Source: a virus
IMG/VR virus record: IMGVR_UViG_3300035698_002613
Coordinates: 1-25,761 of that record
Reading direction: 5' to 3' (one strand)
DNA length: 25,761 bases
Below are positions 7,236-11,400 of this stretch, in pieces. Below the pieces are notes generated by a model. The model saw nothing but the letters and a program-made list of their open reading frames with translations, was not told the DNA's origin and ran no database searches. The translations under genes were made by a program, and so were the position numbers. Every line of letters starts with the position of its first letter. Position 1 is the first letter of the stretch.

Positions 7236-7613
7236 ATGATTGTAGATGGAGTTGAATACGTCAAAAAAGACACTATGCCAGAAGTAACGTGGACGGGCGA
7301 CGAAAGCATTGCAATGAGAATGCAAGGCAAGGCGGTAATCGTTCGATCACGCAATGAAGGAATCAACGCAGGCATTGTTGTTCTGGCTGATGAGACAGGT
7401 GTCGAACTGAAGCAGTGCAGACGCATCTGGTATCACAAGCCCAAAGACGCGACACTGGCGTGGTATGAGGGCGTGTCAGTAAGTGGTCTTCACGCTGACT
7501 CAAAAGTTTCTGGCACTGTTGATACAAAAGTCATCGTCGAAGCTTATTCCATTACGGTCTGCCAGGACTCAGCTTTCAAGTCAATTATGGAGCATCCCAA
7601 TGTTAAGAGTTAA
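7236..7613 (+). CDS. DUF6948-like phage protein
   Basis: A 125-residue protein with a strong AAAAGGAGTAAGATT ribosome binding site. The central sequence VIVRSRNEGINAGIVV, then RIWYHKPKD, WYEGVSVSGL and SKVSGTV, with a VEAYSITVC tail, matches a phage family I recall as DUF6948. Function is unknown; the fold is probably beta-rich. The last ~14 nt overlap the start of a Gly-Tyr-Ser repeat gene, so the two are probably made together. It may assemble with, or act alongside, the repeat protein. Confidence 0.75.
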   Translation: MIVDGVEYVKKDTMPEVTWTGDESIAMRMQGKAVIVRSRNEGINAGIVVLADETGVELKQCRRIWYHKPKDATLAWYEGVSVSGLHADSKVSGTVDTKVIVEAYSITVCQDSAFKSIMEHPNVKS

Positions 7614-7872
7614 AGACAAGGTTGGCGATGGCTCTGGCTCTGGCTATGGCGATGGCTATGGCTACGGATCTGGCTACGGATCTGGATCTGGATCTGGCTA
7701 TGGATCTGGCTATGGCTACGGATCTGGCTACGGATCTGGATCTGGATCTGGATCTGGATCTGGCTATGGCTACGGATCTGGCGATGGCTATGGCTCTGGC
7801 TATGGATCTGGACCTGGCTATGGCTACGGACCTGGCTATGGCTACGGATCTGGATCTGGATCTGGCGAATAA
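7600..7872 (+). CDS. Gly-Tyr-Ser low-complexity repeat protein
   Basis: A 90-residue protein. The chosen ATG at 7600 overlaps the end of the DUF6948-like gene and has GGAG upstream. After a short basic head (MLRVKDKV) it is almost only Gly alternating with Ser, Tyr, Asp or Pro (GYGSG, GYGYG, GDGYG). Such sequences are disordered and, by analogy with Tyr/Gly-rich proteins, could self-associate; that is inference. An upstream ATG at 7483 is in frame but lies inside the other gene and has no ribosome binding site. The overlap and intact frame support translation. Confidence 0.65.
   Translation: MLRVKDKVGDGSGSGYGDGYGYGSGYGSGSGSGYGSGYGYGSGYGSGSGSGSGSGYGYGSGDGYGSGYGSGPGYGYGPGYGYGSGSGSGE
7624..7869 (+). 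repeat. Hexanucleotide-type Gly-X coding repeat
   Basis: About 41 hexamers of the form GGC or GGA followed by TCT, TAT, TAC, GAT or CCT. Gly uses only GGC and GGA codons, and TAC is always followed by GGA, which suggests growth by slippage of 12- to 18-nt units. The array has no stop codon in several frames on both strands, which produces large spurious open frames there. Confidence 0.9.
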
Positions 7873-7902
7873 CATGATACGCTCTTTCATGATTGCATAA
7901 AA

Positions 7903-7965
7903 GCACCAGTGGCAGGCAACCAAGCTGGACCCCAGCAGGCGGTGGGATATAACACCTGTGGCATG
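7903..7965 (+). ncRNA. First, degenerate structured RNA element
   Basis: Begins GCACCAGTGGC and ends CTGTGGCATG, which echo the ends of the tRNA-like element at 8040 (GCCACAGTGGC ... CTGTGGT). A GCTGG-ACC-CCAGC hairpin (7924-7936) sits inside, and GGTG/CACC could form a T-arm-like helix with an 8-nt loop lacking TTC. The end-to-end pairing has two mismatches. I regard it as a possible decayed copy; no tRNA can be called. Confidence 0.3.
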
Positions 7966-7983
7966 GATTACCCTCTTTGTTTT

Positions 7984-8018
7984 CCCCAGGGCAGTCTTTT
8001 GGACGTAAGTCCTTGGGG
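7984..8018 (+). terminator. Terminator-like hairpin between RNA elements
   Basis: CCCCAGGG (7984-7991) pairs with CCTTGGGG (8011-8018), 8 bp with one G-U, and an inner GTC/GAC helix. Only TCTTTG follows, so termination may be weak; it could instead be a processing signal separating RNA units. Confidence 0.5.
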
Positions 8019-8039
8019 TCTTTGAAAAACTGAATACAT

Positions 8040-8154
8040 GCCACAGTGGCGTAAATGGATAAACGCCTCTCCTGCTATTACACTAAGTGCGGTGAGACGG
8101 GTGCGGAGTGTAGCAACGCATCATATCGTGCAGGTTCAATTCCTGCCTGTGGTA
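8040..8154 (+). ncRNA. tRNA-like RNA with an oversized anticodon region
   Basis: The acceptor stem GCCACAG (8040-8046) pairs with CTGTGGT (8147-8153), 7 bp with a terminal G-U, followed by A (no encoded CCA). T8 and G9 are followed by a canonical 4-bp D-arm (GCGT/ACGC, 8049-8066) with A14, GG and A21 in its loop. The T-arm is perfect: GCAGG-TTCAATT-CCTGC (8130-8146). Between D and T arms lie 63 nt instead of about 22-38. The best anticodon-stem candidate is CTCC/GGAG (8069-8072, 8105-8108), leaving a 32-nt loop, and no U33-anticodon-A37 arrangement fits. It is either a tRNA carrying a ~25-40 nt insertion or a tRNA mimic. Standard tRNA scanners may miss it. Confidence 0.7.
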
Positions 8155-8157
8155 TTT

Positions 8158-8213
8158 GCCCCACCGCTGATACAGACCGCAGCGTCATGGCCGTTTAATC
8201 GCCGGCCTGGGGC
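8158..8213 (+). terminator. Terminator-like branched hairpin after the tRNA-like RNA
   Basis: GCCCCA (8158-8163) pairs with TGGGGC (8208-8213), enclosing GGCCG/CGGCC (8189-8193 with 8203-8207). ATTCGTT follows, so a T-run is poor. It occupies the same place relative to the AAAACTGAATA repeat as the hairpin at 7984. Confidence 0.45.
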
Positions 8214-8233
8214 ATTCGTTAAAACTGAATATT

Positions 8234-8300
8234 AAGTGGCCGGGCCTTCAGCTCACTAAGGTCAGAGCAGGGCCGGAAACGGCAACCGCGTCCACTTTTT
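8234..8300 (+). ncRNA. Third structured RNA element with D-arm-like and GAAA-loop hairpins
   Basis: AAGTGG (8234-8239) pairs with CCACTT (8292-8297) to close the unit, and the Ts that follow (8296-8300) make it terminator-like. Inside are GCTC/GAGC (8251-8254, 8265-8268) with a 10-nt loop beginning A, containing GG and ending A, exactly like a tRNA D-arm, and GCCG-GAAA-CGGC (8272-8283), a GNRA-loop hairpin. No T-arm is seen, so it is not a tRNA. Its function is unknown. Confidence 0.5.
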
Positions 8301-8306
8301 ACACGA

Positions 8307-8329
8307 GCCAGGGCGTGGCTATCCCTGGC
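8307..8329 (+). terminator. Perfect hairpin followed by AAAATTTT
   Basis: GCCAGGG (8307-8313) pairs with CCCTGGC (8323-8329), with a 9-nt loop, then AAAATTTT. It ends the RNA cluster and could terminate in either direction, though the downstream T-run starts after four As. Confidence 0.5.
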
Positions 8330-8363
8330 AAAATTTTACAATTGATTGACAGTGAAGTCCTGG

Positions 8364-8460
8364 CCGAGGTCAGGCGTGCAAGGGTGGATGGCTTAGTAGA
8401 ACACCAACGGTATCGACATCAGGTGGGCTACCTGGTGCCTGACAGTGTGTCAGACCTCCG
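8364..8460 (+). other. Multi-helix segment in a gene-free stretch
   Basis: GAGGTC (8366-8371) pairs with GACCTC (8453-8458) around two strong hairpins: CATCAGGT/ACCTGGTG (8417-8437, 8 bp) and CTGACA-GTG-TGTCAG (8439-8453, 6 bp), the latter sharing one base with the outer stem; a weaker GGTG/CACC arm lies between. The gene-free stretch 7873-8621 also holds CAGTGGCTT/AAGCCGCTG (8553-8575, 9 bp). An open frame from 8315 covers it, but only the part after 8711 looks coding. Confidence 0.4.
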
Positions 8461-8621
8461 ACCGTGTCACAGGGAAGGGTTGAGTTTACCGTCCATGAAA
8501 TGCCAGACGATACGGCAACGTGATGCTCTGATACCTCAGAAGACGCATACGGCAGTGGCTTTTTCCAAGCCGCTGTTCCGCCCATCGTATCCTAGAATCC
8601 GCAATAACAAAGGATTAGACC

Positions 8622-8717
8622 ATGACTCAGGAAACGAAAACCAGACTGTGCTTAATAGCCATTTTCAGATGGATGCTGTTGACGATTGTTTATCATGTGA
8701 GGAATATCGTATGCTGA
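8622..8717 (+). CDS. 31-residue single-pass membrane protein
   Basis: A short gene with AAAGGA eight bases before its ATG. After a polar head (TQETKTR) the product has one hydrophobic stretch (LCLIAIFRWMLLTIVYHV), then a short Arg/Asn tail. It ends in ATGCTGA with the next gene's start at 8711, the same coupling used at the following junction. It is too short for most holins and no family is recognised. The start signal and overlap support it. Confidence 0.5.
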   Translation: MTQETKTRLCLIAIFRWMLLTIVYHVRNIVC

Positions 8718-8944
8718 ACCTGTATAGATTAACCTGTGTGAAGAACATCGGTGGCCGCGTCGGTTGTTCTAAGGATGTTTATGCGGTCGCAGAAGACCCA
8801 ACAAAGGCGCACGATATGGTAATGAGCAAAATAAGAGAGTTGCACTGGCTATGCACTGACTACATATCGGAAACGGTTTTTATGGCATCGGTCGATGAAA
8901 CTGAAGGGCCGGAACTTTTAGTAATGGAGGCGTTTAAATGCTGA
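8711..8944 (+). CDS. Small hypothetical phage protein
   Basis: A 77-residue soluble protein. The start at 8711 has GAGGA seven bases upstream and lies in an ATGCTGA overlap; the open frame continues upstream to 8315, but that part lies over RNA-like hairpins. The sequence (LNLYRLTCVKN, DVYAVAEDPTKAHDMVM, ASVDETEGPELLVM) looks like a small alpha/beta protein in which 'VYAVAEDPTKAHDMV' resembles a beta-alpha unit. No function is known. Confidence 0.65.
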   Translation: MLNLYRLTCVKNIGGRVGCSKDVYAVAEDPTKAHDMVMSKIRELHWLCTDYISETVFMASVDETEGPELLVMEAFKC

Positions 8945-10785: not shown

Positions 10786-11400
10786 ATGAAGGCATCAAAC
10801 TTGTGGATGGGCGTATTGTGGACAAGCATGGCATTGGGATCTGATCTACCTACGGTTCTTATCGATCCAGGGCATGGCGGGAGTGATCCGGGCGCGGTAG
10901 TCGATGGGGTGTATGAGAAGGACTTGAACCTTGCGATCGCTCAGATGATCAAGATTGAGGGTTTTGAGGTCAGATTGACCCGTACCAAGGACGAATACAT
11001 ATCACCTGCAGCACGAAAAGAGATGGCTGACCGTATCATGCCCGACCTGTTCTTGAGCATTCACTGCGATGCGTGGGAAACGCCGGACCCTAATGGGTTC
11101 ACGGTGTTCATCGAACGGAACTCATATAGGCGCACACTCACGGCGGCGATTGAGATCAACCGATCGATGAAAAGCACAGGGGCAGTCGATCGGTCAATCA
11201 AAAAGGCACAATTCACGGTCCTGACAGGGCGCGCTCCATCTGTCCTGCTGGAATGCGGGTTTGTGACCAACCCTGAAGAACTCAAGAACTTGTGCCTGCC
11301 ACTGTATCAGGCGACGATTGCCAAGTGCATCGCACAGGGCATCAATCGGTGGTATGACCAGATGGGCAGCGTGATCGCGGATAAGGTGGTGTCGGAATGA
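10786..11400 (+). CDS. N-acetylmuramoyl-L-alanine amidase (endolysin)
   Basis: A 204-residue zinc amidase of the Amidase_3 family that cuts the bond between MurNAc and L-Ala of peptidoglycan. Zinc ligands are H30 (DPGHGG), E44 and H93 (SIHCDA); the catalytic Glu is E156 in LLECGF. The N-terminus (MKASNLWMGVLWTSMALGSD) has a weak hydrophobic stretch that could act as a signal or signal-anchor, so export without a holin is possible. No holin is found nearby. It has an AAGGGGTAATC ribosome binding site and overlaps a small zinc protein gene at its end. Lysis is the likely role. Confidence 0.93.
   Translation: MKASNLWMGVLWTSMALGSDLPTVLIDPGHGGSDPGAVVDGVYEKDLNLAIAQMIKIEGFEVRLTRTKDEYISPAARKEMADRIMPDLFLSIHCDAWETPDPNGFTVFIERNSYRRTLTAAIEINRSMKSTGAVDRSIKKAQFTVLTGRAPSVLLECGFVTNPEELKNLCLPLYQATIAKCIAQGINRWYDQMGSVIADKVVSE

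Follow-up and report, generated by a model that had tools for sequence, protein, structure and literature searches.

The window analysed here, the whole 25,761-nucleotide stretch of DNA (25.8 kb), is a fragment of a viral genome; among its genes are those for a helicase, a primase, an HNH protein, a terminase and head proteins. An amidase-like protein, so named from its sequence and encoded at 10786-11400, suggests a bacterial host. Between the end of a glycine-rich repeat gene (7872) and the start of a coding gene (about 8711) we found no convincing gene; 7901-8494 was marked as a gap by an automatic gap detector, and the non-coding stretch exceeds 700 nt. It holds an array of structured elements, all on the plus strand, upstream of which a promoter search detected no sigma-70 promoter.

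At the centre of the array, 8040-8153 is a tRNA body with an insertion. The preliminary description had claimed an acceptor stem, a canonical D-arm and a perfect T-arm with 63 nt in place of the anticodon region, and this is borne out by the sequence as well as by the RNA family model RF00005. In the acceptor stem, GCCACAG (8040-8046) pairs with CTGTGGT (8147-8153) over 7 pairs, one of them G-U. The D-arm (8049-8066) reads GCGT-AAATGGATAA-ACGC, and in the T-arm (8130-8146) GCAGG and CCTGC enclose the loop TTCAATT. All the elbow positions are kept, namely U8, A14, A15/U48, G18G19, A21 and the TTCAA T-loop. Among the features expected of an RF00005 tRNA, the 7-bp acceptor, the D-arm with its GG and the 5-bp T-stem with a TTCRA loop are present, and the 5-bp anticodon stem with its 7-nt loop is replaced by the 63 nt. 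The check with a tRNA covariance model that had been proposed for this element gave 34.6 bits, above the cut-off of 29 (E 3e-5), in a search confined to the 1.1 kb region; across the whole window, the match was missed with the default or fast filters. Likewise, ARAGORN with default settings (no introns) found nothing at 8040-8153, and with introns allowed it reported a tRNA-Ser(GCT) whose variable arm is long and which contains a 20-nt intron, corresponding to a class II gene with a Ser-GCU-like 5′ half; no CCA is encoded. A cloverleaf scan for acceptor, D-arm and T-arm at free spacing recovered the element and had no hit in dinucleotide-shuffled DNA totalling 2.4 Mb. The fold of 8036-8156 has a z-score of -2.9, and none of 150 shuffles was equally low.

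The distance from the D-arm to the T-arm is exactly 63 nt (8067-8129), compared to about 22 nt in an ordinary tRNA, and this stretch stands in place of both the anticodon arm and the variable loop. ViennaRNA predicts in it an extended anticodon stem of 8 pairs (UCUC..GAGA) with a bulge, followed by a 6-bp variable arm (GGUGCG..CGCAUC); this predicted fold is not significant, as 15% of the shuffled inserts equal it (z = -1.0). The 5′ part reads CTCTC-CTGCTA, like a Ser(GCU) anticodon arm. In the 3′ half the arm is not cleanly closed, the stem proposed by ARAGORN containing a U-U mismatch and a G-U pair. No single contiguous excision leaves both a canonical anticodon arm and a short variable loop. 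We also suspected a motif, TGCGGTGA, common to the anticodon loops of the window and of two loci with related genes (L008 and L039), and found it to be at chance level over the tRNAs collected.

Two neighbours of this gene are tRNA-derived. Upstream, 7894-7966 is a probable truncated tandem copy, alike at 15 of 20 positions to the 5′ end with its flank and at 8 of 10 to the 3′ end; both ends together were obtained in 0 of 20000 shuffles (p < 5e-5). Downstream, an AAGTGG...CCACTT element (8234-8297) combines a canonical tRNA D-arm at 8250-8268 (AGCTCACTAAGGTCAGAGC, 0.005 expected per window) with a GCCG-GAAA-CGGC hairpin, and has no T-arm. Because the upstream piece resembles both tRNA ends and the downstream one holds a canonical D-arm, the array is at least partly tRNA-derived, which gives substance to the term used in the preliminary description. 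It begins earlier than first noted, at 7894, and probably extends to about 8600. A further structured element occupies 8500-8600, where the non-coding stretch ends on its 3′ side (z = -3.5, 1 of 150 shuffles).

The other hairpins of the array are real but ordinary. The CCCC/GGGG hairpins mentioned earlier are present, one predicted in the gap that separates the tRNA from its upstream neighbour (7984-8018), the other closing, as GCCCCA...TGGGGC, a three-way-junction element with two 5-bp arms (8158-8213) that has no RNA-family match in Rfam. The two structured elements that had been placed on either side do fold, but modestly, with z-scores by segment of -2.0 (8154-8220) and -1.6 (8232-8299). 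Similarly, the 11-nt repeat AAAACTGAATA is exact and lies where it had been reported, at 8026-8036 and 8221-8231 with a spacing of 195 nt, but its weight is reduced by the fact that shuffling the region produces a repeat of at least 11 nt in 6.4% of cases (p = 0.064). We consider the repeat and these other folds as weak evidence. For the whole stretch (7898-8610) the z-score is -2.0 (1 of 60 shuffles), and five coding controls range from -0.6 to 0.4.

A competing pairing partner of the acceptor stem lies within the upstream piece. Over 10 bp, CTGTGGCATG (7956-7965) is perfectly complementary to 8037-8046, the 5′ acceptor region of the tRNA (p = 0.0017). In the predicted fold of 7898-8160 the pairing of 7956-7965 is favoured over the cloverleaf by about 7 kcal/mol (-93.1 versus -85.9 kcal/mol). 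Judging from these models, the complement may be a regulatory alternative, or it may merely be the 3′ end of the upstream copy.

Searches at the DNA level found no relative of the array in phages and none in plasmids, apart from one 33-nt chance match in the latter. In IMG/VR, the four contigs with paired 11-nt repeats at similar spacing read as protein-coding or are without a matching array. The comparison with homologous phage loci that had been suggested thus leaves conservation of the array unsupported. We then turned to the neighbouring genes: the helicase led to L008, the DUF6948 gene to 37 IMG/VR loci and the terminase to 2 distant loci, and the ORF at 8711-8941 led to none. In most of the 37 loci the DUF6948 gene is followed by a Gly-Ser/Tyr/Asp repeat gene, and most have coding genes at the place of the array, so that this site is not always non-coding. 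Over the window (7236-7872) and L002-L039, the succession of a DUF6948 gene and a (GS/GY/GD)n repeat gene is almost constant, and in many cases the contig ends fall inside the repeat. In L004 (3067-4309) and L025 (4496-5229), long, strongly structured non-coding DNA (z -4 to -4.8) comes right after this gene pair. Within the L004 stretch are TTGACA-TACAAT, which resembles a promoter, and one orphan tRNA, a tRNA-Ile(GAU) whose variable arm is long; this tRNA is the only RNA-family match in the two stretches, and neither has a detectable sequence relation to the window. A single orphan tRNA with an enlarged anticodon loop is found in L008 (6469-6568), which shares the helicase family of the window, and in L039 (3751-3834), which shares its DUF6948 family. 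A structured-looking stretch of L022 turned out to encode, on the minus strand, a terminase-like protein of 418 aa.

A wider survey shows that insertion-bearing tRNA genes are a recurrent kind in bacterial viruses. Scanning IMG/VR for canonical D- and T-arms separated by 46-76 nt returned at least 120 contigs, with at least 92 matches having good acceptor and T-stems. Conservation of the arms is no evidence here, since the scan pattern required them; the informative part lies between them. Over the loci collected the D-to-T distance is multi-modal, with class I at 22-23, class II at 29-39 and then values of 43 or more; at least 107 distinct viral tRNA genes have at least 43 nt between the two arms, and no such gene was found in shuffles. 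Together with the covariance-model match and the tRNA-derived neighbours, these many comparable genes in other viral contigs support the earlier proposal of an insertion-bearing tRNA. Group A of the survey is composed of class II tRNA-Ile(UAU) genes, which are conserved in many phages (L053, L055, L067, L072, L088, L101, L105, L106, L113, L135, L153). Group C is mixed: no excision works, and the gene is often the sole tRNA of its locus. The window element falls in this group. We also noticed an apparent complete tRNA nested in the anticodon arm of another tRNA (L060:4972-5120 and L107:2123-2269), and matches to permuted tmRNA and tmRNA (L104:4623-4908 and L120:2306-2384) in viral contigs with tRNA arrays.

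Group B is a family with an insert of about 39-52 nt, which interrupts the anticodon stem behind nt 28 or 29 and is made of a short covarying hairpin and a near-invariant CAGCAA (for instance L107:5-120, L119:2726-2843, L116:4649-4764, L064:9330-9444, L173:5269-5384 and L209:7258-7372). The pattern occurs in 101 viral contigs and in 93 genome contigs, most of these 93 from Lachnospiraceae, and jumbo phages are often among the viral carriers. Of 162 distinct cases, 105 regain a perfect anticodon arm after a single excision, compared to 2% in shuffles, and each pair of the hairpin shows pair-keeping two-sided changes in 4-22 of 42 aligned sequences. Rfam recognises only the tRNA in these genes, and the papers searched gave no description of them. 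On the sequence evidence, these inserts resemble a family of small tRNA introns that has not been described before. A phage RNA ligase was considered as a sign of splicing; RtcB is present in 2 and a T4 Rnl1-type ligase in 10 of 25 CAGCAA records, hence neither is required in the phage. We rejected the window element as a member of this family: it scores 16.3 bits with the CAGCAA model R1, below two ordinary tRNAs of L040 (24.5 and 33.5), and allows no exact excision.

Our preferred interpretation, to which we give a probability of about 0.45, is that 8040-8153 is a genuine phage tRNA gene of the long-variable-arm type, nearest to tRNA-Ser GCU, with an interrupted anticodon arm, set within a short tRNA-derived array, and that its product is a non-decoding tRNA body. 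We favour it because the element matches RF00005, has no counterpart among the shuffled cloverleaves, keeps its elbow residues and shares the same 400 nt with a tandem copy and a second D-arm. It is also favoured because interrupted tRNAs recur, because L004, L008 and L039 each carry one odd orphan tRNA, and because no single excision yields a canonical arm, the stem spliced by ARAGORN remaining imperfect. The array would be transcribed as one RNA, in which the intact acceptor, D- and T-arms would promote tRNA-like folding and trimming by the host RNase P and 3′-end enzymes. Offering no anticodon loop, the product would act as a non-decoding tRNA body, either a mimic or a relic, rather than as a decoder, and the upstream 10-nt complement of the acceptor could keep it in an alternative fold. 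The analysis shows the tRNA body, the insertion, the tRNA-derived neighbours and the competing stem, whereas transcription, processing and the lack of decoding are inferred. Several points stand against this interpretation. The searches described above turned up no relative of the array, the fold of the insert is at chance level and the promoter search gave no sigma-70 promoter. Moreover, the neighbours are without T-arms and may be decay products, and the 5′ half contains a plausible Ser anticodon loop (CTCTC-CTGCTA), compatible with an excision leading to a working tRNA.

Other explanations are less probable. The neighbouring pieces are truncated, one to its ends and the other to a D-arm, the insert has no significant fold and its splicing would leave an imperfect anticodon stem, all of which is consistent with a phage tRNA cluster in the course of degradation, where the interrupted tRNA, like the fragments of a D-arm and of an acceptor next to it, would be a functionless relic. 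We hold this to be rather unlikely, given the perfect acceptor, D- and T-arms, the more than 700 nt of non-coding sequence that this compact phage genome retains, and a whole stretch that folds slightly better than chance (z = -2.0, 1 of 60). If 15-20 nt inserted in the anticodon loop were removed to give a working tRNA-Ser(GCU), this would agree with the ARAGORN prediction, with the perfect arms restored by excision in other viral tRNAs with inserts, and with the use of AGY serine codons at 16 per thousand of the phage codons. However, the element falls outside the CAGCAA family, the restored stem is imperfect and the insert is below the size of a group I intron; no bacterial splicing machinery is known to remove such introns, and we regard this explanation as unlikely.

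An anticodon-less tRNA body could also titrate a host factor directed at tRNAs, such as an anticodon nuclease, the CCA enzyme or a synthetase. A non-decoding body is what a decoy is expected to look like, and phage tRNAs are known to act against defences that cleave tRNA, but the known cases use decoding tRNAs (PMC10264068, PMC11555353). No nuclease or defence gene was recognised here, and a tRNA that is decaying or spliced would account for the element about equally well. Since, in addition, a decoy for an anticodon nuclease should offer an anticodon loop, the link to such nucleases drawn in the preliminary description is unsupported here, and we see titration as a distinctly unlikely function. 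It overlaps partly with our preferred interpretation, a decoy being a special case of a non-decoding tRNA body. Finally, the tRNA could be embedded as a domain of one large structured phage RNA like GOLLD or ROOL. The length of the non-coding stretch (more than 700 nt), full-length folds spanning several elements and the strongly structured non-coding DNA at the corresponding place in L004 and L025 (z -4 to -4.8) argue for it. Nevertheless, the weak structure of the window stretch, its lack of detectable sequence in common with L004 and L025 and a search up to E = 10 that matched neither GOLLD nor ROOL make this possibility improbable. Returning to the non-decoding tRNA body, we advance a broader and doubtful proposal: that phages keep arrays of anticodon-less tRNA bodies, derived from their own tRNA genes, as regulatory or decoy RNAs, the window holding one whose fold would be switched by the upstream anti-acceptor strand.

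Counts and explanations of phage tRNA genes take it for granted that these genes decode, and interrupted ones like those described here are missed or misread by the default tRNA finders. If they are spliced, an unknown small-intron chemistry operates in bacterial viruses; if they are not, these are tRNA bodies with another job. Either outcome bears on the purpose of phage tRNAs and on the evasion of tRNA-targeting defences.

How does the window element compare with known systems? No group I or group II intron match was found in Rfam. Like the archaeal and eukaryotic tRNA introns at position 37/38 (PMC4090602), the insertion can be placed in the anticodon loop, but the amidase-like gene suggests a bacterial host and the spliced stem is imperfect. 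GOLLD and ROOL, ornate phage RNAs (PMC12286853), are long, non-coding and associated with tRNAs like the array, whose structure is much weaker and which matches them neither in sequence nor in the models; the model search for them covered 7600-8700. As in tmRNA, tRNA-like ends surround a long insert at the place of the anticodon, but the insert is of only 63 nt, the canonical D-arm is kept and no Rfam tmRNA match was obtained up to E = 10. With the CAGCAA-insert genes the element shares a tRNA body with about 40 extra nt between D- and T-arm, whereas the hairpin and CAGCAA at nt 28/29 are absent and excision leaves the arm unrepaired. Class II phage tRNA genes (RF00005) differ from it by the 63 nt between its D- and T-arms, its lack of an intact anticodon arm and of CCA, and its position as an orphan among fragments, but they have the same acceptor, D-arm, T-arm and elbow residues, and the same long-variable-arm layout readable by ARAGORN.
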